A program made the position numbers and the translations under genes. From Acrocarpospora macrocephala (GTDB lineage: Bacteria; Actinomycetota; Actinomycetes; Streptosporangiales; Streptosporangiaceae), in the NCBI RefSeq assembly GCF_009687865.1, contig NZ_BLAE01000097.1:1-37904 (forward strand): a DNA stretch of 37,904 bases. The letters are read 5' to 3'. Under the pieces are notes generated by a model. That model made no database searches, was not told the origin of the DNA, and was given only the letters and a program-made list of their open reading frames with translations. Of the stretch, positions 24,393 through 37,904 are shown one piece after another; within the stretch, counting starts at the first letter, position 1, and each line of letters starts with the position of its first letter.

Positions 24393-24482
24393 CTAGTGGG
24401 TGTCTCCGAACCTTGACCCGGTTCGAGGGCTGCCGACCGGGAGCGCGAATCACCGGGTCAAGGTTGCGGGCCGGGCCACTAG
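24393..24482. terminator. Inverted repeat between convergent genes
   Basis: AACCTTGACCCGGT (24409-24422) is the exact reverse complement of 24452-24465, and outside it CTAGTGG (24393-24399) pairs with 24476-24482. The nested arms form one large stem between the nuclease stop (24390) and the polyprenyl synthase stop (24479), which it overlaps. It probably ends transcription from both sides. Confidence 0.65.
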
Positions 24483-25516
24483 ACCATGCGGTGGGTCATC
24501 AGCCCGGCCAGCGTGGTGAGATCCGCGGCCGGGCGGGGAGCCAGACCGGCCGCGTTCAGGCGGGTGAGAGCCTCTTCCAGCAGGGCGTCGGCCGTGGACT
24601 GGCTCCACGCCCTGCCCCCGGCCTCCTCGATGAGACCCGCGGCGCGGGTGAGCTCGTCGTCGGAGAGCAGGGCCTCGCGCCGGTAGAGGGCGGCCAGCTC
24701 GCGCCCGGCGGCCGTGCCGGAGGTGAGCGCGGCCACCACGGGAAGCGACTTCTTACGATTCGCCAGATCCGAGTAGACCGGTTTGCCGGTGACCACCGGA
24801 TCCCCCCAGATGCCGAGCAGATCATCGGCCAGCTGGAACGCCAGCCCTAAGCGGTCGCCGAAGGCCCGCAGATGTTCGACCTGCGCCGCCGTCCCGCCGC
24901 CGAAGATGCCGCCCAGCGCGCACGCGCACGCGATCAGCGCGCCGGTCTTGCCGCTCGCCATGCGCAGGCACTCGGCCAGCTCCACCTCCGCCCGGCCCTC
25001 GAACTCGACGTCCGAACTCTGCCCGTTCAACAGCTCCTGCACCGTCGCGCTGAGCGCCGACACGCCCTCCCGGGCGAGCGGGTGACCGCTGGACGCCAGC
25101 ACGTCGAACGCCAGCGTCAGCACCGCGTCACCCGCCAGGATGGCCTGGCTCACCCCGAACGCGCTCCAGGCCGTCGGCCGGTGCCGCCGGGTCGCGTCCC
25201 CGTCCATCACGTCGTCATGGAGCAGGGAGAAGTTGTGCACCAGCTCCACCGCGACCGCGGCGGGCAGCGCCTCGCCCGCCTCGCCACCGGCCGCCTCGCC
25301 CGCCAGCAGCACCAGCGTGGGCCGCACCGCCTTGCCGCCCCCGCCGGCCTCGGCCGGGACGCCGTGCGCGTCCCACCAGCCCAGGTGATACCCGGTGATG
25401 TGGCGCATCGGGGCCGGCAGCTGGTCCACCGCCGGGCCCAGGGCCGGGCGCAGCAGCGCCCGGCCCCAGTCCAGCACCGCACCGGCCGTGCGCCGCTCGA
25501 TCGACTCCGCGGTCAT
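24479..25516 (-). CDS. Polyprenyl diphosphate synthase, putative encapsulin cargo
   Basis: The 345-aa protein is a trans-prenyltransferase. The first Asp-rich motif DDVMD is at 101-105 (in LVHNFSLLHDDVMDGD) and the second, DDLLGIWGD, at 231-239. The lysines in KAVRP near 62 and KKSLP near 253 bind diphosphate. It joins isopentenyl units to make a linear prenyl diphosphate; chain length is not readable. The ATG at 25516 overlaps the encapsulin stop (TGATG), so the two are coupled. In family 2B encapsulin operons this enzyme is a known cargo type. Only about 10 residues precede the catalytic fold, so the long disordered targeting tail found on other cargos is absent from this start. Confidence 0.9.
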   Translation of the reverse strand: MTAESIERRTAGAVLDWGRALLRPALGPAVDQLPAPMRHITGYHLGWWDAHGVPAEAGGGGKAVRPTLVLLAGEAAGGEAGEALPAAVAVELVHNFSLLHDDVMDGDATRRHRPTAWSAFGVSQAILAGDAVLTLAFDVLASSGHPLAREGVSALSATVQELLNGQSSDVEFEGRAEVELAECLRMASGKTGALIACACALGGIFGGGTAAQVEHLRAFGDRLGLAFQLADDLLGIWGDPVVTGKPVYSDLANRKKSLPVVAALTSGTAAGRELAALYRREALLSDDELTRAAGLIEEAGGRAWSQSTADALLEEALTRLNAAGLAPRPAADLTTLAGLMTHRMV

Positions 25517-26889
25517 CAGTGCCCGAGCTCCACGTTCTCCAGCACGCCCAGCGCGTCCGGGATCAGCACGGCCGCCGAGTAGTACGCGCTGACCAGATAC
25601 GAGATCACCGCTTGCTCGTTGATCCCCATGAACCGCACGTTGAGCCCCGGCTCGACCTCGTCCGGCAGGCCCGTCTGGCGCAACCCGACCACGCCCTGGT
25701 CCTCCTCGCCGGTCCGCATCGCCAGGATCGAGGTGGTCTGGGAGTCGCTGATCGGGATCTTGTTGCAGTTCAGGATCGGCACGCCCCGCCAGGCCGGGAC
25801 ATGGCTCCCGTTCACGTCCACCACCGGCGGATACACCCCGCGCTTGGTGCATTCGCGGCCGAAGGCGGCGATGGCGTGCGGGTGCGCGAGGAAGAACTGC
25901 GTCTTGCGCCTGCGGCTGAGCAGCTCGTCGAGGTCGTCGGGCGTGGGCGGCCCGGTCCTGGTGTGGATGCGCTGCTTCAGGTCGGCGTTGTGCAGCAGCC
26001 CGAACTCGCGGTTGTTGATCAGCTCGTACTCCTGCCGCTCGCGCAGCGCCTCGATGGTGAGGCGCAGCTGCTGCTGCGTCTGGTTCATCGGGTCGTTGTA
26101 GAGGTCGGCGACCCGGGTGTGCACGCGGAGCACGGTCTGGGCGACGCTCAGCTCATACTCCCGAGGGGAGACCTCGTAGTCGACGAACGTGCCCGGCAGG
26201 ACGGCCTCGCCGTGGTGCCCGGCCGCGAGCGCGATGGCGGCCTGGCCGTGACCGTCCTGCGGCCGGTCGGCCGCCGACAGGTAGCCGTCCACCTGGGCGC
26301 GCAGCGAGTCGGACTGGGCCAGCAACTCTTCGAACGCCCGCCGGGCCAGGGTCAGCACGGTTCCCGCCGTGGTCGCCTTGACCGTGAACTCCCAGGTGCC
26401 GGGCCCGAGCAGGGACCTGTCCCCGAGATGGTCCCCGTCCGCCAGGTTCCCCAGCACCGCCTCGTCCCCGTAGGGGCCGACCCCCAGCCGGTCAAGCTTC
26501 CCGTGCGCCACCAGCACCACCTCGTCGGCGGGGTCGCCCGAGGCCACGATGATGTCACCCGGCTCGAAGTCACGCTGGGTGAACCGGCCCGCCAGGCGCT
26601 CCAGCGTGTCCGTGTCCTCGTAGCCGCGCAGCAGCGGCAGCTCGCACAACTCCTGCGGGACGACCCGGATCGAGGCCCCCACATTGGTGAAGCTGACCCG
26701 GCCGTCGCCGACGGTGTAGGTGAGCCGCCGGTTGACCCGATAGGCCCCGCCCGACACCTCCACCCACGGCAGCACCTTCAGCAGCCACCGCGACGTGATG
26801 CCCTGCATCTGCGGCACGGTCTTGGTGGTCGTGGCGAGCTTCCGCGCGGCGGCGGTGCCCAGGCTCAGCTGATCGTTCTGAACGGTCAC
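25516..26889 (-). CDS. Family 2B encapsulin shell protein with cyclic-nucleotide-binding domain
   Basis: The 457-aa product matches the SrpI-like family 2 encapsulins, virus-capsid-fold (HK97) proteins that self-assemble into enzyme-holding shells. An N-terminal arm (1-75, with [20 protein letters not shown]) leads into a Crp-like cyclic-nucleotide-binding domain inserted at about 85-205 ([20 protein letters not shown] and [17 protein letters not shown]), which defines subfamily 2B. The HK97 shell domain follows (about 220-457, including [16 protein letters not shown] and the [21 protein letters not shown]-terminal block). It is often mis-annotated as a Crp-type regulator, but no HTH is present. 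GTG 26889 follows GAGGAG. The coupled polyprenyl synthase is the likely cargo. Confidence 0.93.
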
Positions 26890-26979: not shown

Positions 26980-27078
26980 TCAGCGGCCGATGGTTTCGCT
27001 GACGTCGAATTCGGTGGCCTTCGGTGGTTTACGTGCGGCAGCCGTACCCAGTCTCAGCTGGTGCTTCTCCACCGTCAC
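26980..27078 (-). CDS. 32-aa ORF repeating the encapsulin N-terminus
   Basis: GTG 27078 follows GGGAGG at 7 nt. The peptide starts [17 protein letters not shown], matching the encapsulin start ([17 protein letters not shown]) at 12 of 17 positions, then continues with 15 unrelated residues (PPKATEFDVSETIGR) to a stop. It lies 90 bp upstream of the shell gene on the same predicted transcript. It may be the 5' remnant of a second, lost encapsulin gene, or a small peptide that mimics the shell arm. The good ribosome site and clean stop keep the second option open. Confidence 0.5.
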   Translation of the reverse strand: MTVEKHQLRLGTAAARKPPKATEFDVSETIGR

Positions 27079-27509: not shown

Positions 27510-27584
27510 TATGGCCTGGTCGGCGAGTCGCGAGAGAAGTGGGCAGTCGGCGTAGTTCGCGGAAGATCGCGATTTCGTATTATT

Positions 27585-27620
27585 CTGGATGAGAGACGAA
27601 CATTACCGCCTCTCATCCAG
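27585..27620 (-). terminator. 11-bp hairpin downstream of the secreted-peptide ORF
   Basis: CTGGATGAGAG and CTCTCATCCAG (27585-27595 and 27610-27620) form a perfect 11-bp stem with a 14-nt loop. On the minus strand it comes 20 nt after the peptide stop and is followed by AATAATACG, so it is a plausible terminator without a full U-tract. The 20 nt before it read GTGTAGCTCAGCGGCAGA, which looks like a tRNA D-arm, but no complete tRNA can be folded. Confidence 0.45.
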
Positions 27621-27640
27621 AGTCTGCCGCTGAGCTACAC

Positions 27641-27766
27641 CTAATTGCTTATGCTTGTTACGCTATGCTTGGTGTGACTCGGCGAAGAATTCACGAAATC
27701 GGCAAACTGCACCGACGTCATGAACATGAGAGCGCTCGCGAGGAGCGCTGCACATTTCTTCTTCAC
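27641..27766 (-). CDS. 41-aa putative secreted peptide, candidate signal for the adjacent AfsR-type regulator
   Basis: GTG 27766 follows GGGAG at 4 nt. The peptide starts VKKKCAALLASALMFMTSVQ: a lysine-rich start and a 17-residue hydrophobic core, a textbook signal peptide. Then come FADFVNSSPS and a polar, Ser/Thr/His-rich tail ending SVTSISN. Cleavage after QFA would leave about 18 residues. The frame is open further upstream, but only this start has a ribosome site. It lies 205 bp downstream of the AfsR-type gene on the same strand, with its own predicted promoter and hairpin. Short exported peptides next to TPR regulators are the hallmark of RRNPP-type signalling in Firmicutes; here that role is inference. 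I recognise no family. Confidence 0.5.
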   Translation of the reverse strand: MKKKCAALLASALMFMTSVQFADFVNSSPSHTKHSVTSISN

Positions 27767-27855
27767 TTGTCTCCCAGAGGAGCTTGATCTCGACGTGGGC
27801 AGGGCACACGTATATGAAGCACATATATGGCGATGTGCCCGGCGTTGCGAGAGTA

Positions 27856-27895
27856 ATTCTATACCTTCAGATAGGTGCCCTTGACCGCCAGATAG
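27856..27895 (-). promoter_or_regulatory. SARP-like promoter upstream of the secreted-peptide ORF
   Basis: On the minus strand two exact CTATCTG heptamers (27895-27889 and 27874-27868) lie 21 bp apart, close to two helical turns. The second ends 4 nt before a TATAGA -10 box (27863-27858). There is no good -35. Direct heptamer repeats in place of the -35, on one DNA face, are how SARP regulators act. The expected transcript starts about 85 nt before the peptide GTG. Confidence 0.45.
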
Positions 27896-27971
27896 CACCC
27901 ATTTTTCGGGCTGTTAGGGTGTTTGTGAATAGAATAGCTATTGCTAGATATATGGGGTGGTCTGTCGGGTT

Positions 27972-30900
27972 TTAGTCGTATCTCTCTACTTGCGCGAGTC
28001 GCAAGCGTGCCGCAGGGCCCTCCGGCACGCCCATACGTTCGAACTCCCCGATTGCCTGGCGCCAGTACCGTTCCGCCTGGCTGGGGTCGCTTCGCACGAG
28101 CGCGCTGCCCATCCGATCCAGGTTCAGCGACTCCTGATACACGTCGCCTATGCCCCGGGCGATCTCCAGAGCCTGCCGGTAGTAGTCCAGGGCGGTCTCC
28201 AGCCGACCGGCCCTCTCATAGACCTCGCCCATGCCGCGCAGAGCCAGGCACTGCTCGTACCTCTCGGAGATCTCCCGAGCGAGCGACAGGGCCCTCTGAT
28301 GGTGCGCCAGGGCCTGGTCATCGCGATCCATGAGCCCATAGCAGAAGCCGGTCTGGTTGAGCACATCCGAGATTCCCCGGCGGTCGCCCACCTGGCCGTA
28401 AATCTGCGACGATCGGCGATACGAGTCAAGAGCCGCTGAATAGTCGCCGATGTGCTGCAGGACGTTGGCCATGTTGCACAACCAAATTGCCTGGTGCTGG
28501 CGGCTCATGTCGGGGCTGATCGTCGCCGCCTGCTCCAGAAGCGCCCGCGCCGAGGCGTACCGGCCCAGGCGGAGTTCGAACTCCTGCCAGTTGTTCAGGG
28601 TGACCAGTTGCCCCCGCGCGTCCCCGAGCCGCTGATAGACCCGCAGCGCCTGCTGCATCCGCTCGGCCGCCTGTGAGAAATCCCCCTGATGATAGGCGAG
28701 GATGCTGATGCTGTTCAGACTCGCCGCCTCGCCCCGCAGATCCCCCAGCGACCGGCGGATGTCCAGCGCCTGCCCGCAGTAGTCGAACGCGGCCTCGAAG
28801 TCCGAACGATGCCAGTGAACCAGCCCGATCTGGTCTAGGAGTTCCGCCACCCCGGCCTGGTCGCCGAGCCCGCGCCGGATGGCCAGTCCCTCCGTCGCGT
28901 GCCGTAGCGCGTGCTCCAGGTTCCCGCCTCGCCACCGAACCTTGGCGAGATCGCTCAGGGCGGTGGCCAGCCCCGCTTGGTCTTCCAGTTCGTGCCATGC
29001 GGTGACCGCGCACTCGTGCAACTCGGCGGCCATGTCCCAGTGCCCGGCGTCTTCCAGGAAGGTGCTGAGCACATGCGGGAGCAGGGCCGCGTGCCGGGTC
29101 CACCGCTCTTCGGCGGCGTGCCGGACGAGTTGCCGCAGATTATCGAGTTCGGTCTCCAGCCAGTCTCGCGCTTGCTCCGCGCTGGCCATGCCAGGCCGTA
29201 CCGGCGGCAGATAGGTCACCACGACGGCGGCGCGCTCGCGCTGGGGGTGGAGGAGGCGGTCGGCCTGGTCGGCGGCGAAGAGGTACAGATCGAGGATCCT
29301 GATCAAGGTCTGGCGGCGCTGGGCGAGCGGCTCGCGACCGGCTAACAGGCGGGCGTACTCGCCGATGAGGTCGTGGAAGCGGTACCGGCCGTGCTGGGGT
29401 TCGGCGATGAGGTGGTGGTCGAGAAGGCCGTCCAGGACGCCTTCGACCGTGGCCTTGTCCCCCTGGAGCAGGGCGCACGCGGATTCGATGGTGAAATCGG
29501 TGCCGGGATGCAGGCCGAGAAGGCGGAACGCGCGCTGGTGAACCTCGTCGAGTTCGTGGAAGGACAGTTCGAAGGCGGCCGTGATCTCGCGGTTCCCCGC
29601 GTGGATTTCGGACAGCCGGCGCCGCTGGTCACCGAGTCGGGCCAGCAGGTCGGCGACGCGCAGGGCAGGGCGGACGCGCAGACGGCTGCCGACGAGCTGG
29701 ATGGCGAGCGGAAGATAGCCGCAGAGCCGGACGACCGAGGCGATGTGCAAGGCCTCGCGGTGGCGGCGCGGGCCGATGACGCGGTCGAACAGGGTGGTGG
29801 CGTCGTCGGGCGGGAGGGCGTCGAGGGTGACCGACAGCACGTCGTCGAGCCCGGCCAAGCGGCGGCGGCTGGTGATCAGGACCAGGCAGCCGGGCGTGCC
29901 GGGCAGCAGGTGGCCGATCTGGTCGTGGCCGGTGGCGTCGTCCAGGACGATGAGCATCCGGCGCCGGGCCAACTCGGTGCGCCAGAGGGTGGCCCGCTCC
30001 TCCAGGCCCTGCGGGATCTGCGCGGCGGGCACTCCCAGCACGCGGAGCAGCCGTCCCAGCGCGGTGGCGGCGTCGACCGAGGATTGTTCCGCGTGATGGC
30101 CGTAGAGGTTGAGGTAGAGCTGCCCGTCAGGGTATTCCGGGGTGAGCCGGTGTGCCAGGTGCAGGGCCAGCGCGGTCTTCCCGACCCCGGGCATGCCGTC
30201 CACAGCCAGCACCGTCACCGCGTTCGCCCGTGCCGCCGCCATGGCCGTGAGCTGCCGGATCTCATCCGTACGTCCGGTGAAGGTGAACACGTCGCGCGGC
30301 AGGTTGTTGGGCGCGTCCGGCCGGCGGCGCGGAGCGGGCCGCAGCGACGGGTCGCCGCGCAGGATGCGCTGGTGGAGTTCGCGCAGGCGGTGGCCGGTCT
30401 CGGTGCCGTGGTCGGTGGTGAGGCGGCGGTGCGCTGCCCGGTAGACCTCCAGAGCGCTGGTCACCCGCCCACTGCGGTGCAGGGCGAGCATCTGCAGTTC
30501 GACCAGCTTCTCGTCGTACGGATAACGCGCGATGAGTTCGGCGAGTTCGGCGGTGATGTCGGCGTGGTGGCCGAGCCGGAGTTCCAGTTTGCTCCGCTCG
30601 ACGCTGGCCGCCAGGAACTCGTCGTCAAGGTTCTGCCTGGTCCTGGCCACCCACGAGCCGGAAAGGCCGCCCAGCGGCTCGCCCCGCCAGAGTCCGACCG
30701 CCTCCCGCAGCAGTTGCGCGGCCTGCTCGCCGTCGCCGGTTCCCTCGATGGTCCTGGCCTGCGCCCGCAATTGCCGGAACCGGTGATAGTCGACGTTCTC
30801 CGGATCGGTTTCTAGAACATATGCGCCAGAACGATGGTGCAGATATGCGTCTTCTCCGATATCCTGCAGTCGAGCCTTGATCCGCGACATGTTGGTGTGA

Positions 30901-31085
30901 ATTCCGGACCGTGCTTTTGGTGGCGGATCGTCGTCCCATATCTTGTTCATCAGAGAATCGATGGATACCGGCTGGCCCGGGGCGAGTGCTAGAACTGCCA
31001 GGATGAGGCGTTCTCGGGCATAGCCAGCGTGATGGCGTTCCCGGGCAGCCCAGAGTTCTACCGGGCCCAATATGCGAAATTCCAC
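27972..31085 (-). CDS. AfsR/SARP-family regulator with BTAD, NB-ARC and TPR domains
   Basis: The 1037-aa protein has an OmpR-like winged helix (1-95), a bacterial transcriptional activation domain (BTAD, about 96-245; DYHRFRQLRAQA, ALEVYRAAHRRL), a STAND-type NB-ARC ATPase (about 265-560; P-loop GMPGVGKTAL at 297-306, Walker B MLIVLDDA) and a long TPR array (about 690-1030) with repeats such as ALDSYRRSSQIYGQVGDRRG. AfsR of Streptomyces has the same order and activates secondary-metabolite genes; the TPR part senses a partner. GTG 31085 follows AAAGGGG at 5 nt. The secreted-peptide ORF and its SARP-like promoter lie just downstream, so autocrine control is possible (inference). No biosynthetic cluster adjoins it except the distant Pls genes. 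Confidence 0.93.
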   Translation of the reverse strand: MEFRILGPVELWAARERHHAGYARERLILAVLALAPGQPVSIDSLMNKIWDDDPPPKARSGIHTNMSRIKARLQDIGEDAYLHHRSGAYVLETDPENVDYHRFRQLRAQARTIEGTGDGEQAAQLLREAVGLWRGEPLGGLSGSWVARTRQNLDDEFLAASVERSKLELRLGHHADITAELAELIARYPYDEKLVELQMLALHRSGRVTSALEVYRAAHRRLTTDHGTETGHRLRELHQRILRGDPSLRPAPRRRPDAPNNLPRDVFTFTGRTDEIRQLTAMAAARANAVTVLAVDGMPGVGKTALALHLAHRLTPEYPDGQLYLNLYGHHAEQSSVDAATALGRLLRVLGVPAAQIPQGLEERATLWRTELARRRMLIVLDDATGHDQIGHLLPGTPGCLVLITSRRRLAGLDDVLSVTLDALPPDDATTLFDRVIGPRRHREALHIASVVRLCGYLPLAIQLVGSRLRVRPALRVADLLARLGDQRRRLSEIHAGNREITAAFELSFHELDEVHQRAFRLLGLHPGTDFTIESACALLQGDKATVEGVLDGLLDHHLIAEPQHGRYRFHDLIGEYARLLAGREPLAQRRQTLIRILDLYLFAADQADRLLHPQRERAAVVVTYLPPVRPGMASAEQARDWLETELDNLRQLVRHAAEERWTRHAALLPHVLSTFLEDAGHWDMAAELHECAVTAWHELEDQAGLATALSDLAKVRWRGGNLEHALRHATEGLAIRRGLGDQAGVAELLDQIGLVHWHRSDFEAAFDYCGQALDIRRSLGDLRGEAASLNSISILAYHQGDFSQAAERMQQALRVYQRLGDARGQLVTLNNWQEFELRLGRYASARALLEQAATISPDMSRQHQAIWLCNMANVLQHIGDYSAALDSYRRSSQIYGQVGDRRGISDVLNQTGFCYGLMDRDDQALAHHQRALSLAREISERYEQCLALRGMGEVYERAGRLETALDYYRQALEIARGIGDVYQESLNLDRMGSALVRSDPSQAERYWRQAIGEFERMGVPEGPAARLRLAQVERYD

Positions 31086-31301
31086 ACAAGCCCCTTTGTG
31101 GGGGACGTGTATTCCTTAGGCCAAAGTTTTTCACCTTCGTCAATGGAAATCCAGTTGACCAGGTCGCGTGAACTGTACTGACAGAGTCAGTAAGGTTTCC
31201 GCAAGGGTTTCTGCAAGGTCTGGCGCGGACGCTCACGACAAGGGGTGATTCGGGGGGATTGCCCACATCTGGAGCGTGAGCGAGGGGGCTGCAGAGGCAG
31301 T
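31086..31301. promoter_or_regulatory. Divergent control region with short repeats
   Basis: The 216 bp between the AfsR-type gene and the transferase gene contain TTGACG (31143-31138) and TAAGGA (31118-31113) on the minus strand with 19-nt spacing, a weak promoter candidate. A perfect palindrome ACTGAC-AGA-GTCAGT lies at 31177-31191. Two tandem 12-bp units, GGTTTCCGCAAG and GGTTTCTGCAAG, lie at 31194-31217. The direct repeats could be SARP or other activator sites for the rightward operon. Confidence 0.4.
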
Positions 31302-32528
31302 ATGCCAAGTCTGGAATGGAGCCGGGTCCCGGTCGGGCCCGAGGCCCGCAGATGGGTCACACGAGGGAACTGCAAGACCGTTCTGGTGGTCGTCCACACC
31401 GTCACGTCGGGACAGCGCCTGCTGGAGGCGGTCCAGCTGGTCCAGTCGGACCTGCGGGTCCAGGTGCTGTTCACGATCGCGAAGGATGTGTTCAACAACG
31501 GGGTCGAAGAGTTCGTGGAGAGCCTCGACGGCGGGGTGCTGCTGCCCTGGCAGCAGGCCGTGAACGAGCGCTTCGACCTGGCCATTGCGGCCAGTCTCGG
31601 GTCGGTACACGAGATCAACGCGCCGCTGATCGTGATGGAACATGGGGCCGGATTCAACAAGTTCGTCCCGCGTACGCCCGGCCGGCGCGTGGCCGGCGCG
31701 CGCGCCACGTACGGGATGGACCCGCAGCGCCTGCTCCGGGACGGCGCCGTCATCCCGGACGCGATCGTGCTGCCGCACCAGAGCGATCTGGTCCGGCTGG
31801 CCAGGCAATGCCCGCAGGCGCTGCCGTCGGCGGAGGTGATCGGCGACCCGATCTACGACCGGCTGGCGGTCAGCCTCGACGATCGCGCGCTGTACCGGCG
31901 GGCGCTGGACGTACGGCCCCGCCAGAAGCTGGTCGCGGTCAGCTCCACCTGGGGCACCGAGTCGTTGTTCGGCAAATCCGACCTGATGAGCCGCCTGGTC
32001 CGCCAGCTGCCCGCCAGCGAGTACAAGGTGGTCGCGCTGCTGCACCCCAACATCTGGTCCGCGCACGGGGCGAGGCAGGTCCGCGCCTGGCTGGCCGACA
32101 GCCAGCGCCGGGGGCTCCAGGTGGTGCAGCCCCAGGACGAATGGCTCGGCGTGCTCGTCGCGGCCGACTGGGTGGTCGGCGACCACGGTTCCGCAACGCT
32201 TTACGGCGCGTCCATCGGCAAGCCGACCCTGCTGGCCAGGTTCCCGTCCGAGGACGTGGACCCGAACTCCCCGCTCGGCGAGCTGGCCGCGGTCGCGCCG
32301 CGGATCAACCGCTACCAGCCGCTGGCGACCCAGCTCACCCGGGCCGCCGCCGCGCTCAAGCCCGAGCACTCCCAGCGGGTGGAGGAGCGGCTCACCTCGG
32401 CCCCCGGCCAGTTCCACCGCAACATGCGGCGGCTGATGTACCGGCTGATGAACCTGCGCCAGCCCGCGTCCATCCCGGTCGCCACCCCGGTCCCGATGCC
32501 GTTCCTCACCCCGTACCACGGAGGCTGA
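31302..32528 (+). CDS. CDP-glycerol glycerophosphotransferase-like (GT-B fold) protein
   Basis: The 408-aa cytosolic protein has two Rossmann-like halves. The first has VLVVVHTVTSGQRLLEAVQL and a NAPLIVMEHGAGFNKF block. The second has LVAVSSTWGTESLFG, VVALLHPN and VVGDHGSATLYGASIGKPTLL. The order of a histidine-containing HP-N loop and a GDHGS nucleotide/phosphate site is that of CDP-glycerol:poly(glycerophosphate) transferases and related GT-B enzymes. It could add a polyol phosphate or sugar to a wall polymer or a small molecule. I chose ATG 31302, with AGAGG just upstream. The gene after it starts 2 nt past its stop. Assignment is by motif pattern and substrate is unknown. Confidence 0.6.
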   Translation: MPSLEWSRVPVGPEARRWVTRGNCKTVLVVVHTVTSGQRLLEAVQLVQSDLRVQVLFTIAKDVFNNGVEEFVESLDGGVLLPWQQAVNERFDLAIAASLGSVHEINAPLIVMEHGAGFNKFVPRTPGRRVAGARATYGMDPQRLLRDGAVIPDAIVLPHQSDLVRLARQCPQALPSAEVIGDPIYDRLAVSLDDRALYRRALDVRPRQKLVAVSSTWGTESLFGKSDLMSRLVRQLPASEYKVVALLHPNIWSAHGARQVRAWLADSQRRGLQVVQPQDEWLGVLVAADWVVGDHGSATLYGASIGKPTLLARFPSEDVDPNSPLGELAAVAPRINRYQPLATQLTRAAAALKPEHSQRVEERLTSAPGQFHRNMRRLMYRLMNLRQPASIPVATPVPMPFLTPYHGG

Positions 32529-32530
32529 TC

Positions 32531-33103
32531 GTGCTCGACAAACTCGTCGTCGCCCACTTCTTCGGGCAGCGCCAGCCGCTGGCGCTGGACCGGACGCCGC
32601 CGCTCGCCCCGCGCGCGGCCGTGCCCGCGGTCCTGGTCATCCCCCGGGAGGGTCCGCCGCTCGAGCCCCACCTGATGGTGGTGACCGGCCCGTCGGCCGC
32701 CCAGGGCCTGCCATCCGCCGACGCCCACATCGTGGTCGACTCCGACGACGCCCGGGACCAGCGCTGGCAGGAACTGGCCGACGTGCTGATCACCCGGCAC
32801 GAGGTGGCGGGCCTGCTGGACCGCCACGTCGGCTGCGCGGTCGCCGTGGCCCGGCAGCCGGGCGGCTGCCTGGTCGGCCTGCGGCACGGCCCGCTGGCGC
32901 AGATCACCGGGCTCGCCGGGCTCCTCGCCGGCGCCGACCCGTGGCCCGCCACCTTCGGCTCGCTGCTCTACTGCTGGCTGTCCGCCAGGCTCCCGCTGTA
33001 CGGCCTGACCACGGCCACCGTGATCGCGGGCCACTACCGGGACGGCCGCCACTTCGAGGTGGCCGGCCGCGTACGGATCACGGTGAGCGAGGCGGCGGCA
33101 TGA
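32531..33103 (+). CDS. Protein of unknown family, middle gene of the GT-B/PfkB operon
   Basis: GTG 32531 gives a 190-aa soluble protein of mixed alpha/beta character. No catalytic signature, membrane segment or signal peptide is evident. It has LMVVTGPSAAQG and HIVVDSDDARDQRW early on, and LLYCWLSARLPLYGLTTATVIA and the strand pair EVAGRVRITVSEA at the end. The start lies 2 nt after the transferase stop, and its own stop overlaps the kinase start (ATGA), so it is made with both neighbours and probably works with them. I cannot name a function. The frame is open upstream through the previous gene, but that part is a shadow. Confidence 0.7.
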   Translation: MLDKLVVAHFFGQRQPLALDRTPPLAPRAAVPAVLVIPREGPPLEPHLMVVTGPSAAQGLPSADAHIVVDSDDARDQRWQELADVLITRHEVAGLLDRHVGCAVAVARQPGGCLVGLRHGPLAQITGLAGLLAGADPWPATFGSLLYCWLSARLPLYGLTTATVIAGHYRDGRHFEVAGRVRITVSEAAA

Positions 33104-34017
33104 CCCCGACCATCGTGGTCGCCGGCGCGACCAGCTTCTACCTCTCCCTGGGCGTGGCCGAATTCCCGGTCCACTACCTGCCGACCTGCACGCCCAGGTG
33201 GCTGACCGGCGGCGTCTCCGGCGCGGCCGCCCACATCGCCCGCACCGTGCGCACCCTGGGGAGCCACGCCAGGCTCTGCACGGTCGTCGGCACCGACCTG
33301 GTCGGCGCCGGCATCCGCGCGGACCTGGACGCGCACGGGCTGCTCGGCCCGGGGGTGATCTCCGGCGAGGGCTCCTCGATGGGCGTCGTCCTGGTCGGCC
33401 CCGACGGCCGCCGGATGGGCTACCCGTACCTGGCCCCCGTCAACGACGTCAACTACCCGTTCGACGTGCTCGCCGGGCAGTGCCGGGACGCCGACCTGCT
33501 GGTGCTGACGAACGCGAAGTTCGTCCGCCCGCTGGTGGCCCGCGCGGACGGCCTGGGCATCCCGATCGCGGTGGACGCCCACCTGATCGCGGACCCGGGG
33601 GACCCGTACAACGAGCCGTGGCTGCGGGCCGCGCGCGTGCTGTTCTGCAGCCACGAGCGCCTCCCGGTGCCACCGGAACGCTGGATCGCCGAGATCTTCG
33701 GGCGGTATCCGCGCTGCGCGCTCGTCGGCGTGGGGCTGGGGGCGCGCGGCGCCATGCTGGGCCTGCGGGACGGGCGTCTGATCACGGTCCAGGCGGTCGC
33801 GCCACGCGGCGTGCTCAACACCTCGGGCGCCGGTGACGGGCTGTTCGCCACGTTCCTGCATCTGTGGGTGAGCACCGAGGATCCCGTACGGGCGCTGCAG
33901 GGCGCGGTACTCAACGCGGGCTGGAAGGTCGGCGACCGCACCCCGGCGGGCGCCTCCCTCACCTCGGCCGACCTTCGCGCGATCCCACCACCCCCGACTA
34001 TCGTGGGGTTGTGGTGA
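33100..34017 (+). CDS. PfkB/ribokinase-family sugar or nucleoside kinase
   Basis: The 305-aa product has the PfkB fold. The N-terminal substrate region includes GGVSGAAAHIARTVRTLG (33-50; usual form GGxxxNxA), and the C-terminal signature LNTSGAGDGLFATF near 244 carries the catalytic Asp and the anion hole. The GGVSGAAAH version lacks the usual Asn, which also occurs in divergent members. It would phosphorylate a sugar, nucleoside or similar alcohol with ATP. The ATG at 33100 overlaps the upstream stop. With the CDP-glycerol-transferase-like gene it may make and transfer an activated phosphorylated sugar or polyol (inference). Confidence 0.87.
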   Translation: MTPTIVVAGATSFYLSLGVAEFPVHYLPTCTPRWLTGGVSGAAAHIARTVRTLGSHARLCTVVGTDLVGAGIRADLDAHGLLGPGVISGEGSSMGVVLVGPDGRRMGYPYLAPVNDVNYPFDVLAGQCRDADLLVLTNAKFVRPLVARADGLGIPIAVDAHLIADPGDPYNEPWLRAARVLFCSHERLPVPPERWIAEIFGRYPRCALVGVGLGARGAMLGLRDGRLITVQAVAPRGVLNTSGAGDGLFATFLHLWVSTEDPVRALQGAVLNAGWKVGDRTPAGASLTSADLRAIPPPPTIVGLW

Positions 34018-35159: not shown

Positions 35160-37235
35160 TCATTCCAGCTGGGCGAGCAGCCGGTCCAGCCGGGTGGTGG
35201 CGGAACCCATTCCGTTCAGCACCTGGCGGGCCCGGCTGAGGAGTTCGCGCGCGTCCTCGGGCCGCCCGTGGCGCAGGGCGACCTCGCCCAGCGTCTGGAG
35301 CGCGAACGCCTCGCCCGAGGCGGAGCCAAGCTCGCGCATCACCTGGAGTCCCCGGTTGATGTCCGGCTCGCTCCCCTGGACGCGCCCCAGCAGGATGAGC
35401 GCCCGGGTCCGGTTGTACCGATCGGACTCGGCCGCCTCATACGCCGCCGTCAGGTACGGCACCGCCTCCTCGGCCCGGCCGCTCTCCACCAGCGCCCGGC
35501 CCAGATCGCATCGGGCCAGCGCCACCCGCCTGACCTCACCGGCCGCCTGGTACCCATCGAGCGCCTCGGTGAACAGCCTGATCGCGGCCTCCGGCCGATC
35601 CCGATCCAGCTCCAGCCAGCCGAGCCGCCGATACCCGCCGGCCACCCGATACGCGTTGCCCAGCCCTCGCCAGATCTCCAGCGCCCGCCCGAAATCCTCG
35701 GCGGCCTCGTCCCACCGCCCGAGCGTGCGTAGCGAAACCCCGGTCCTGTTCAGCATCTTGGCCTCGCCGACCGGGTCCCCGGCGGCCCGCGCGGCGGCCA
35801 GCCCGAGCCGATCCACCTCCAGCCGCTCGGCGTAGAAACCGCGATGCAGGAACAGCGGCCACAACGCGTCCACCAGCTGCCAGGCGATCTCGTGCCAGCC
35901 CCGCTCGAACGCGACCTGCGCCGCCGCGCGCAGGTTGCGGAACTCCCGATCCATCCAGTCAAGCCCGTCCGCCGCGTCGGCGAACTCCATCGCCCCCGTT
36001 GCCACTGGAATCCGCCGGTACGGCGCCGCCGCGTCACTGGCCGCCCTGGCGGTGTCCAGAAACCAGCTCACCGCCCGCCGCACGCTCTCCTCCCGCGCGG
36101 TCGCGGAATCCTCCAGCTCGGCCGTCTCCCGCGCGTGCAACCGGACCAGATCGTGAAACCGGTACTCCCCGCCGGGCAAGTCGTCGAGCAGGTTCGCGTC
36201 GGCCAGCACCCCCAGCAGCCGCCGGCTCTCCTCCGGCGGCAGCCCGGCGGCCGCGGCCGCCGCCGCGCCGCCGAAACTCCCCCCGGGAAACAGCCCGAGC
36301 AGCCGGTACAGCCGCGCCGCGTCCGGCGCCAGATTCTGGTACGACAACGTCAGTGCGGCCCGGATCGTCATATCGTCCTCCACAGAAAGCGCGCTGAGCC
36401 GTCGGCTCTCCTGCGCGAGAGCAGCCACCATCTCGGTCAAGGGCCAGCGCGGCCGGGTGGCCAGCCGGGCGGCGGCCACCGACACGGCGAGCGGCACCCC
36501 GGCGCACAGATCCACCAGCTCGGTGGCCGCGGCCAGCTCATCGCCCACCCGATCGTCCCCGAGCGTGTGCCGGAGCAGGTCGAGCCCCGCGTCCACGCCG
36601 AGGCGTTCCACCTGGAGCCCGCGCGCGCCGCCTACCACCAGCCCGGCCAGCCGCCACCTGCTGGTCACCAGGACCATCCCGTCTCCGGACGCGGGCAGCA
36701 GCGGCCGCACCTGCGCCGCCGAGATCGCGTCGTCCAGCACCACCACGATCCGACGCCCGTTCACCAGCGACTGGTAGAGCGCGGCCCGCTCGGCCAGGCC
36801 GCCCGGAATCCGGTCCGGCGCGATCCCGAACGCGCGAATGAACAAACCCAGGACTTCGGCCGGATCGACCGGGGGATCGGTGGCATGTCCGCGTAAATCC
36901 GCGTACAGCTGGCCGTCCGGGAAATGGTCGTGATTCCGGTGCGCCCAATTCAGGCTGAGGGTTGTTTTCCCGACCCCCGCCGGGCCGCTCACCACCACCA
37001 CGACGGGGGACCCGGACGCGGATCGGCGGCCGTTCACCCGATCCAGAAAGGCGAGCGTTTCCCGCCGGTCGATCAGGAGCCCGGCGGGCGGTAACTGGCG
37101 TGGCGTGGGCAACGGAACGGACGTCTGATGAATGTGAATACCGCCTCTGACGTCCCGCGCCTGGACCGCAGGCCCATGCACGGTACCGTCCAGGCTGTTG
37201 ATGTGCTCGCTATGGGGATCTCTGCTCATCACCAT
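35160..37235 (-). CDS. NB-ARC/TPR STAND protein without DNA-binding domain
   Basis: About 690 aa from ATG 37235 (or 37229). A short N-terminal segment with GTVHGPAVQARDVRGGIHIH at 15-34 leads to an NB-ARC ATPase (about 50-400; P-loop GPAGVGKT at 82-89, Walker B RRIVVVLDDA, VLVTSRWRLAGL sensor), a winged-helix part (FHDLVRLHARETAE) and a TPR-like C-terminal array with repeats of the form WDEAAEDFGRALEIWRGLG. It is like the AfsR-type protein at 27972-31085 but lacks the HTH and BTAD, so it probably signals through protein contacts, as STAND sensors do. The start lacks a good ribosome site; the open frame runs further upstream but its codons look non-coding. Confidence 0.85.
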   Translation of the reverse strand: MVMSRDPHSEHINSLDGTVHGPAVQARDVRGGIHIHQTSVPLPTPRQLPPAGLLIDRRETLAFLDRVNGRRSASGSPVVVVVSGPAGVGKTTLSLNWAHRNHDHFPDGQLYADLRGHATDPPVDPAEVLGLFIRAFGIAPDRIPGGLAERAALYQSLVNGRRIVVVLDDAISAAQVRPLLPASGDGMVLVTSRWRLAGLVVGGARGLQVERLGVDAGLDLLRHTLGDDRVGDELAAATELVDLCAGVPLAVSVAAARLATRPRWPLTEMVAALAQESRRLSALSVEDDMTIRAALTLSYQNLAPDAARLYRLLGLFPGGSFGGAAAAAAAGLPPEESRRLLGVLADANLLDDLPGGEYRFHDLVRLHARETAELEDSATAREESVRRAVSWFLDTARAASDAAAPYRRIPVATGAMEFADAADGLDWMDREFRNLRAAAQVAFERGWHEIAWQLVDALWPLFLHRGFYAERLEVDRLGLAAARAAGDPVGEAKMLNRTGVSLRTLGRWDEAAEDFGRALEIWRGLGNAYRVAGGYRRLGWLELDRDRPEAAIRLFTEALDGYQAAGEVRRVALARCDLGRALVESGRAEEAVPYLTAAYEAAESDRYNRTRALILLGRVQGSEPDINRGLQVMRELGSASGEAFALQTLGEVALRHGRPEDARELLSRARQVLNGMGSATTRLDRLLAQLE

Positions 37236-37270
37236 GCAGGAGAAATTAATTCGTACCGTTCGATTGCTTA

Positions 37271-37405
37271 TCACAGAAATCCCGCCAGTTGACTTTCCTC
37301 CCCTCGATAGTAAGGATCTGTAGAGCCTGAGATCCTTTTCAGTGGTGCGGGTCCACTTTCGCTGAGAAGGCGAACCAGTTCGGCGACGTAGCAAATGACA
37401 GCCAT
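37271..37405 (-). CDS. Possible 44-aa leader ORF upstream of the NB-ARC gene
   Basis: ATG 37405 with a weak AGGAA ahead opens 44 codons (MAVICYVAELVRLLSESGPA and onward) that end 36 bp before the NB-ARC start. The first 17 residues could form an amphipathic helix. The group II intron begins 20 bp upstream of it, so a longer gene may have been interrupted. Codon use is mixed and there is no family match, so this is a weak call. Confidence 0.25.
   Translation of the reverse strand: MAVICYVAELVRLLSESGPAPLKRISGSTDPYYRGEESQLAGFL
37312..37337. terminator. 8-bp hairpin followed by TTTTC
   Basis: AAGGATCT (37312-37319) and AGATCCTT (37330-37337) form a perfect stem with a 10-nt loop. On the plus strand the run TTTTC overlaps and follows it, so it could end plus-strand transcription before the intron; on the minus strand it lies in the leader of the NB-ARC gene. 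Confidence 0.4.
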
Positions 37406-37425
37406 GTTTCCTAGTACGGCAGCCG

Positions 37426-37904
37426 GTGCGCCCAGAGATCACGGAGGTGATTGTCCAGCGATCATGACCTGATCGGAAGCTCGTCGTCGCCTGCCGGTGT
37501 GAGTCCGGTCCGGGTAATCGCCAGGGAGCCCGGTAGCAGGCTGGCGGCCCGGTCTGGAAACGGGCCGGGTCGAAGCCCAGCGTCGAAAGCCCCGTTGGGG
37601 GAAGCAACTGAGCGGTCCGTAGCGGAAGCGAAGCCTGCCGCGTCGTTAGACACCGAGAGAGAGCCGAGCCGGGCGACTCACGGCGAAGGCCATGGAAGCG
37701 GTGAAGATCCTGGAGTGCTGCCGTCAGGGACTCTCCGGCGTAAGAGGGCGCGGAACGTTCAGAGGGTGGCGGCGGGAACTGGGGAGGCCCTCCCCGGCCG
37801 GAGCGTGCTGCGGATAGGCGTGGACGACGCCGTCTTATAACCGGTGTGGAGCCGGGAAGTGGGCGGCGGCCGGGAGGGAGTCGGAGGCGGTCGTAGTACC
37901 GATC
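37426..37904 (+). mobile_element. Group II intron, 5' RNA region (runs off the window end)
   Basis: The sequence begins with the group II 5' consensus GTGCGCCCAGA and continues for 479 bp as GC-rich, stem-forming DNA without a convincing reading frame. Landmarks of domain I include repeated GAAA-type loops (GGTCTGGAAACGGGCC, CGTCGAAAGCC) and the GAGCCGGGCGACTCACGG segment. It ends in GGCGGTCGTAGTACCGATC, like the leader before intron-encoded reverse transcriptases, so the maturase gene should start just past the edge. A stem-loop at about 37713-37737 exposes GCTGCCGT, the complement of ACGGCAGC at 37416-37423 in the upstream flank, a candidate EBS1-IBS1 pair although offset by 2 nt from the junction. 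The exact 5' junction is inferred from the consensus. Confidence 0.75.

Follow-up and report, generated by a model that had tools for sequence, protein, structure and literature searches.

A conserved pairing of large SARP regulators with short hydrophobic peptide genes suggests a peptide signalling system in actinomycetes

In a 37,904-nucleotide stretch of the Acrocarpospora macrocephala genome (contig NZ_BLAE01000097.1, here called the window; source genome of 12.1 Mb in 166 contigs), the gene of a large SARP regulator is followed on the same strand by a gene for a hydrophobic peptide of 41 amino acids. This observation, made in an earlier note on the DNA, is confirmed as real and beyond chance. 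Peptides of the same family recur beside related regulators, their reading frame is under selection, their types match the regulator clades, and operator-like repeats accompany the divergent promoter of the regulator gene. The pairing suggests an undescribed peptide signalling system in related actinomycetes. Our preferred reading, which we consider reasonably probable, is that the adjacent regulator's TPR domain binds the peptide as its ligand, by which the output at the divergent promoter is set; that the peptide is a true intercellular signal falls somewhat short of an even chance.

Antibiotic production is controlled by large SARPs, and the signal that their TPR 'sensor' detects is an open question. 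For one large-SARP subfamily the pairing supplies a candidate ligand, whose exact sequences could be synthesised, together with a candidate operator that could serve as a reporter. If this holds true, signalling by peptides through intracellular TPR receptors would reach from Bacillota to actinomycetes. The earlier note knew of no described pair of an AfsR-type protein with a peptide, and word searches of the literature agree: a SARP-peptide pair was absent from the matches listed, with preprints outside PMC and closed journals lying beyond their scope. Further parts came to light here, namely a divergent glycosyltransferase-like gene, the operator repeats and a second NB-ARC/TPR protein.

The regulator and its adjacent peptide gene

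The regulator gene (27972..31085, minus strand) starts with GTG and encodes 1037 amino acids. Open reading frames (ORFs) and Pfam domains bear out the arrangement first read from the sequence, an HTH-BTAD-NB-ARC-TPR regulator followed by a same-strand ORF of 41 codons. Pfam matches comprise Trans_reg_C (an OmpR-type DNA-binding domain), BTAD, NB-ARC and several TPR families, and with a SARP domain (OmpR-type DNA-binding domain plus BTAD), NB-ARC and a C-terminal TPR region the protein is a large SARP. It is not an AfsR orthologue by score, reaching 571.7 bits against the NCBIfam AfsR equivalog cut-off of 1430.

The AlphaFold model (mean predicted local distance difference test score, pLDDT, 91.4; predicted template modelling score 0.70) places the DNA-binding and BTAD domains in residues 1-250, NB-ARC and a linker at about 260-630 and a TPR superhelix at about 636-1036. 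In Foldseek comparisons, residues 1-250 match the SARP domain of AfsR in its RNA polymerase complex with a template modelling (TM) score of 0.88-0.91 by target length, and the top match of the whole protein is a STAND-TPR protein. TPR domains of LGN with bound partners (TM about 0.4-0.6 by target length, about 20% identity) and Apaf-1 are among the nearest solved folds. The modelled superhelix (27975..29180, minus strand), whose blocks mostly exceed a pLDDT of 90, fits a peptide-binding groove, which we propose to lie there.

The peptide gene (27641..27766, minus strand) starts with GTG 205 nt past the regulator stop, and its product, MKKKCAALLASALMFMTSVQFADFVNSSPSHTKHSVTSISN, is one member of a peptide family marked by short length and hydrophobicity. 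The codons of its conserved core, MFMT, lie at 27716..27727 (minus strand), as aligned with FMT- and IWM-class peptides of relatives. The ribosome-binding site and the hairpin of the earlier note are both present: GGGAG stands 5' of the start (27771..27775, minus strand), and a terminator-like hairpin 3' of the gene (27584..27621, minus strand) folds with -30.9 kcal/mol and a z score of -4.8, equalled in 0 of 200 shuffles; it has no U-run, and a terminator scan listed none on this strand. Two further claims stand in part. The proposed promoter is weak, with one sigma-70-like site against 0.4 expected by chance. The signal peptide is there as far as KKK and a following hydrophobic stretch, but the only -3/-1 pair behind the stretch, found by inspection, is VNS|SPS, and the core lies within the stretch. 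When a profile of 15 FMT/IWM peptides, with the window excluded, was run against the 848 frames of the window, the 41-residue frame ranked first with an E value of 0.0029, the runner-up having 5.4.

A peptide family in related loci

Regulator searches gave matches in 35 of 198 genomes, the own genome among them, at E up to 1e-150, and at E up to 1e-140 in 115 of the family's 341 genomes; the majority of matches, not all, cover the full protein length. The 141 loci compared consist of a first set of 91, including the window and its own-genome paralogue L002, a class-wide set of 10 and a more distant set of 40; 28 further SARP/NB-ARC loci from the own genome served as a control. One weak relative (L060), from a single-protein search of genome contigs, was not used, and the sample holds the near-duplicates L042/L086, L066/L067 and L070/L071.

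A partner peptide was curated in 64 of the 141 loci (62 of 91, 0 of 10 and 2 of 40 in the three sets), spanning 11 genera and two families by the genus codes of the searches. Peptides and start codons were picked by eye, the starts of L144 and L147 being uncertain. The short hydrophobic ORF expected downstream of related regulators is thus found, and its conservation, one of the points on which the earlier note had let its proposal stand or fall, is supported by pattern, profile and pair tests. In 62 cases the peptide gene starts 82 to 517 nt past the regulator stop on the same strand; in two (L084, L101) it is inverted and starts 191 nt from that stop.

The peptides fall into types by their core. 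The VHMT/IHMT type carries it at or near the C-terminus, mostly after a signal-peptide-like N-terminus, as in L083 (MAKRLFAVVGLAAAFLALTAAQASAAVLVHMT) and in L093, which ends in AWAVHMT. IYMT is found in L037, L038 and L091, and MFMT/IFMT-like cores in the window, L031, L074, L075, L088 and L116 as well as, on the opposite strand, in L084 and L101. IWM peptides (L034, L065-L067, L072), IMMG peptides, frequently with two or three copies (L044, L048, L094, L099, L108), FQMI peptides (L042, L086, L090, L115) and QWMPN peptides (L056, L118) form further types, besides a very short one (L068 with MRCIFMWLFPEDH, L073, L089, L092 and L041; for example MHYMFMWLVGL). Lengths of 11-16 residues occur in 15 of 64 peptides, and core copies, variants included, are repeated two or three times in 11 of 64. 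Some of the peptides resemble Sec-type precursors with one to three cores. The variable tail once predicted is only partly borne out: the variation is not simply at the tail, and a core of the form (H/Y/F/W)M(T/x) is kept that differs between clades.

In a FastTree phylogeny of the 141 regulators, which came with a long-branch warning, 48 of the peptides fall in a clade of 56 and 13 in a clade of 14. Peptide classes track regulator sub-clades: (V/I)HMT, IYMT, (M/I)FMT, IWM, IMMG and FQMI. Large regulator clades lack any peptide, and presence or absence requires at least 10 changes on the tree.

Three side observations belong to these loci. A transposase-like gene, recognised by eye, follows the regulator of L032 after 144 nt, at the position of the peptide gene in relatives. 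Among more distant regulators, L124, L136 and L141 have downstream short ORFs with signal-peptide-like starts and other C-termini, and other large-SARP subfamilies may carry peptide types of their own. In L050 and L053, whose regulators belong to a clade without peptides, a downstream gene resembles, by eye, a nitric oxide synthase oxygenase domain.

Statistical support and selection on the peptide frame

A strict rule combining motif pattern, ribosome-binding site and length was passed on the downstream coding strand in 44 of 91 loci, against 2 on the downstream opposite strand, 0 and 3 on the upstream coding and opposite strands and 0 inside the gene; 60 dinucleotide shuffles gave a mean of 1.4 and a maximum of 5. 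The two opposite-strand matches are probably the inverted genes of L084 and L101. The motif was chosen after these first 91 loci had been seen, and since the pattern was built on them, further tests matter. A motif-free signal-peptide rule with a ribosome-binding site was passed in 32 of 91 loci downstream versus 3, 3, 0 and 0 in the controls. In the HMT/YMT clade, [HYFW]MT near a C-terminus was present downstream in 22 of 24 loci, while three controls had it in 0 of 24 each; elsewhere it was present in 3 of 117 loci (controls 0, 1 and 0). None of the 28 own-genome paralogues passed the strict pattern, 10 of them having less than 450 nt of downstream sequence and one (L015) a signal-peptide-like ORF. 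In the class-level set of 10, L125 passes through a 48-residue ORF that was left uncurated.

Across fifteen hand-chosen ORF pairs, the proportion of synonymous differences (pS, 0.388) exceeds that of nonsynonymous ones (pN, 0.185; p 1.2e-12), the mark of purifying selection, which points to translation and constraint of the frame in those loci. A rival explanation would make the peptide a toxin of type I-like kind or some other small membrane protein, to which the regulator gene is merely linked. Its shortness, hydrophobicity, basic N-terminus and downstream hairpin are what such a protein would have, but the clade-matched cores, the repeats, the very short forms and the pairing with a single regulator subfamily argue otherwise, and a C-terminal VHMT that is kept while the hydrophobic part diverges would be unexpected for a generic toxin. 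We regard this explanation as very improbable.

Operator-like repeats at the divergent promoter

Upstream of the regulator and divergent from it lies the gene of a protein predicted to have a GT-B fold like that of TagF and CDP-glycerol transferases (31302..32528, plus strand; the ORF is listed from GTG 31245, and homologues begin, by eye, at ATG 31302). By sequence this glycosyltransferase-like (GT) protein has no convincing Pfam or PDB match, and its fold alone is informative: the model (pLDDT 85.8) matches TagF with a TM score of about 0.6 and UDP-GlcNAc 2-epimerase. The GT gene adjoins 58 of the 64 peptide-bearing regulators; the six exceptions are the FQMI and QWMPN types, among which L115 has no upstream sequence.

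Between regulator and GT gene, ACCTTGCGG direct repeats recur at 11-12 bp. In the window, repeat scoring identified the candidate SARP-type operator ACCTTGCAG-aaa-CCCTTGCGG-aa-ACCTTACTG (31188..31219, minus strand), with direct repeats at 12 and 11 bp; the direct-repeat operator of about 11-bp spacing expected of a large SARP thus appears to be present. With a threshold of 20 of 27 matches across three ACCTTGCGG repeats, the operator was found in 27 of 58 loci with peptide and GT, 4 of 18 with GT and no peptide, and 1 of 63 without GT. Neither the reverse strand nor the inside of the gene reached this threshold in any of 58 control regions each, and 1 of 290 shuffles that keep base composition only did so; the consensus was drawn from the same regions on which it was scored. 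A variant in the HMT clade, CTTGACG..AACTTGCA, falls under the threshold. Across the 12.1 Mb genome, the window operator is the sole match to the three-repeat pattern, and a reversed control pattern has 7; the two-repeat pattern has 4 versus 2 for its control. It is therefore the place of the operator, not its rarity, that carries weight.

Direct activation of the peptide gene through a SARP box before it was considered and dropped. A lag scan before the peptide gene in the 64 curated loci put spacings of 10 and 11 bp slightly above the rest, and in the window CTATCTG occurs there twice, 21 bp apart, while ACCTTGCGG repeats were found in none of the 57 regions scored. By this sequence pattern, the regulator would act locally at the divergent promoter and not on the peptide gene.

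Proposed mechanism and alternative explanations

In the mechanism that we propose, the short gene would give rise to a hydrophobic peptide whose core (here MFMT; in relatives VHMT, IYMT, IMMG and others) would be the ligand of the TPR superhelix and act as inducer or anti-inducer. Its binding would shift the STAND (NB-ARC) switch, by which the SARP domain would be enabled or blocked at the ACCTTGCGG repeats, and the divergent promoter would drive the GT-B operon, the regulator's own gene or both. For the HMT/YMT clade we envisage release of the peptide from a Sec-type precursor, which in some cases holds two or three copies; these multi-copy, signal-peptide-like precursors argue for export, and RRNPP-like re-import would follow. 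Leaderless and FMT types would differ in export or processing. Binding, processing, export, re-import, the direction of the effect and the target operon are steps that we infer.

Several observations weigh against this reading. No exporter, protease or importer recurs among the clustered neighbours. The operator is absent from all 57 regulator-peptide intergenic regions scored (7 of 64, under 120 nt, were excluded), so that there is no sign of the usual autoinduction loop. Curation yielded no peptide for 77 of the 141 loci. Among these are 16 where a divergent GT gene is present and four loci that are second copies within the window's genus (L002, L033, L036, L063); these four show no convincing peptide on either side by eye and no GT, a loose motif scan flagging one upstream ORF in each. 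When no ribosome-binding site is required, the signal-peptide rule gives 38-46 of 91 loci versus 6-18 in intergenic controls. In the distant set of 40, the strict pattern is found twice downstream and once in each of three controls; the two matches, L144 and L147, are the sole loci there above 40% identity, so this set bounds the family and does not confirm it by number, and the pairing is confined to one regulator subfamily. Class-specific residues are no denser in the TPR region (16/407) than elsewhere (3/97, 6/153, 9/250, 6/130), in a comparison confounded by phylogeny; a clustering of specificity residues in the TPR region was accordingly rejected.

The window's own peptide adds two further points of this kind. 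Its ORF is in none of the 15 selection-test pairs, and its profile score of 16.2 bits is lower than that of any of the 15 training peptides (20.2-52.6). Taken with the missing clear cleavage site, this would suit a decayed or chance copy within a real family, yet location, ribosome-binding site, hairpin, core and tail spacing are all right and the frame ranks first in the window, which leaves such decay barely credible.

In the window's peptide class, moreover, the MFMT core sits within the hydrophobic stretch, and cleavage behind the stretch would discard it; either other processing is needed or the peptide acts in the cell. The second option corresponds to an explanation in which the peptide is never exported and works with the regulator as a small protein partner, either as an AfsS-like relay or as a built-in anti-activator. 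The core position in the FMT and IWM classes, the existence of peptides as short as MHYMFMWLVGL and MRCIFMWLFPEDH, and the small gene afsS that likewise adjoins AfsR are consistent with it. The signal-peptide-like precursors of the HMT clade, with their repeated C-terminal cores, are hard to explain without export, and the operator is not found before the peptide gene, unlike that of afsS. We judge a purely intracellular role unlikely, and retain the ligand of the TPR domain as the preferred reading.

Neighbouring genes

Twenty-one neighbourhoods of up to 20 kb, the window included, were compared with genes called by a simple script. A divergent gene beside the regulator is common to 20 of 21. 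Behind the GT gene follow a small uncharacterised protein of about 192 residues with an unsettled start (32525..33103, plus strand; homologue in 10 of 21) and a PfkB-type kinase recognised by Pfam and NCBIfam (33100..34017, plus strand; homologue in 8 of 21). A second NB-ARC/TPR protein without SARP domain (35160..37904, minus strand; its frame leaves the window) has a SARP-less counterpart in 20 of 21 and perhaps functions within the cassette. Defence-system profiles gave generic TPR matches only, and a plasmid search returned 83 records, all below 60% identity.

A further rival reading makes the peptide an antimicrobial or the precursor of a ribosomally synthesised and post-translationally modified peptide, with the GT-B protein as the enzyme that makes or decorates it and with a kinship to the FxSxx/HaaA systems. 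These join AP-ATPase/TPR proteins to small proteins with a conserved C-terminal peptide (available part of PMC7159879), and the regulator is scored by NCBIfam against their TPR proteins, although below the cut-offs (HaaT 499.9 against 1125; FxSxx 104.3 against 300). Their radical SAM and/or metallopeptidase partners did not appear in motif scans, made without a profile search, of 273 crudely called ORFs from the 21 neighbourhoods: CxxxCxxC occurred in one and HExxH in six, two of which are the regulators. GT and peptide also occur apart, with a GT match in 18 peptide-less loci and no GT beside FQMI and QWMPN peptides, and the cores IMMG, FMW and FQMI hold no Ser, Thr or Cys. We find this explanation quite improbable.

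Downstream of the peptide gene, at 24479-26889 (minus strand), the gene of a Family 2B encapsulin shell protein (784 bits against a cut-off of 400) is followed by that of a polyprenyl synthetase, which may be a cargo of the shell. A 32-residue ORF just upstream of the shell gene (26980-27078, minus strand) resembles, by eye, the N-terminal residues of the shell protein, like a partial duplication.

Comparison with known systems

The DNA-binding domain of MalT-type STAND regulators differs from that of SARPs. In the available part of PMC10936776, these proteins are transcription activators, switched by an inducer and then ATP, a likeness to what we propose for the window regulator. Their inducers are of sugar or sugar-alcohol type, however: MalT responds to maltotriose and GutR to glucitol.

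The nearest published idea is that of an FxSxx-type peptide with an AP-ATPase/TPR partner, proposed as toxin or signal in the accessible text of PMC7159879. Actinomycete FxSxx-COOH/HaaA systems likewise combine such a partner with a small, fast-evolving protein that carries a conserved C-terminal peptide, but they include a metallopeptidase, plus a radical SAM enzyme in the FxSxx type, and that text describes no SARP domain. By motif scan, such enzymes do not recur in neighbourhoods of the window type.

AfsR-afsS of Streptomyces shares a large SARP with NB-ARC and TPR, an adjacent small gene and a direct-repeat operator (PMC10972967 and PMC10936776, as far as available), the latter at an 8-bp distance to the -10 element (PMC10936776). 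AfsS is described, unlike our peptide, as sigma-factor-like, and the AfsR box lies in the afsS promoter (PMC10972967), whereas the window repeats lie in the divergent promoter. The accessible text of the 2024 structure paper describes NB-ARC and TPR as inhibiting the SARP domain and ATP as relieving this inhibition, with inducer binding to the sensor domain still elusive (PMC10936776). A class-wide reading would be actinomycete cell-to-cell peptide signalling with NLR-like (STAND) SARP regulators as receptors and clade-specific pheromones that range from leaderless 11-mers to Sec-exported multi-copy precursors. A transferase of cell-wall type and the second NB-ARC/TPR protein would belong to it as well, and AfsR and its many paralogues may then sense peptides. 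We offer this as possible, though not quite probable.

The RRNPP receptors of Bacillota (Rap, Rgg, NprR, PlcR, PrgX) carry an XRE-type HTH or the Rap N-terminus and no NB-ARC. The window regulator, from an actinomycete host, differs in its SARP DNA-binding and NB-ARC domains, and none of its 17 Pfam families, Trans_reg_C, BTAD and NB-ARC among them, is XRE-type. The available part of PMC10075063 reports RRNPP_detector as applied to Firmicutes and viruses and calls actinobacterial signals typically small molecules; in a structural RRNPPA phylogeny paper, a search of the text at hand found none of the terms AfsR, NB-ARC and Streptomyces. The likeness is in the arrangement, a TPR-containing intracellular receptor adjoining a short precursor gene (PMC10075063), which the window pair also has, and leaderless and tandemly duplicated precursors are known in RRNPP systems too (PMC10518010 and PMC11343458, as far as accessible). 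The RRNPP layout claimed in the earlier note thus holds for the TPR receptor and its adjacent short gene but not for membership, given the OmpR/SARP-type DNA-binding domain and the NB-ARC ATPase; by analogy, the window system may nonetheless work in an RRNPP-like manner.

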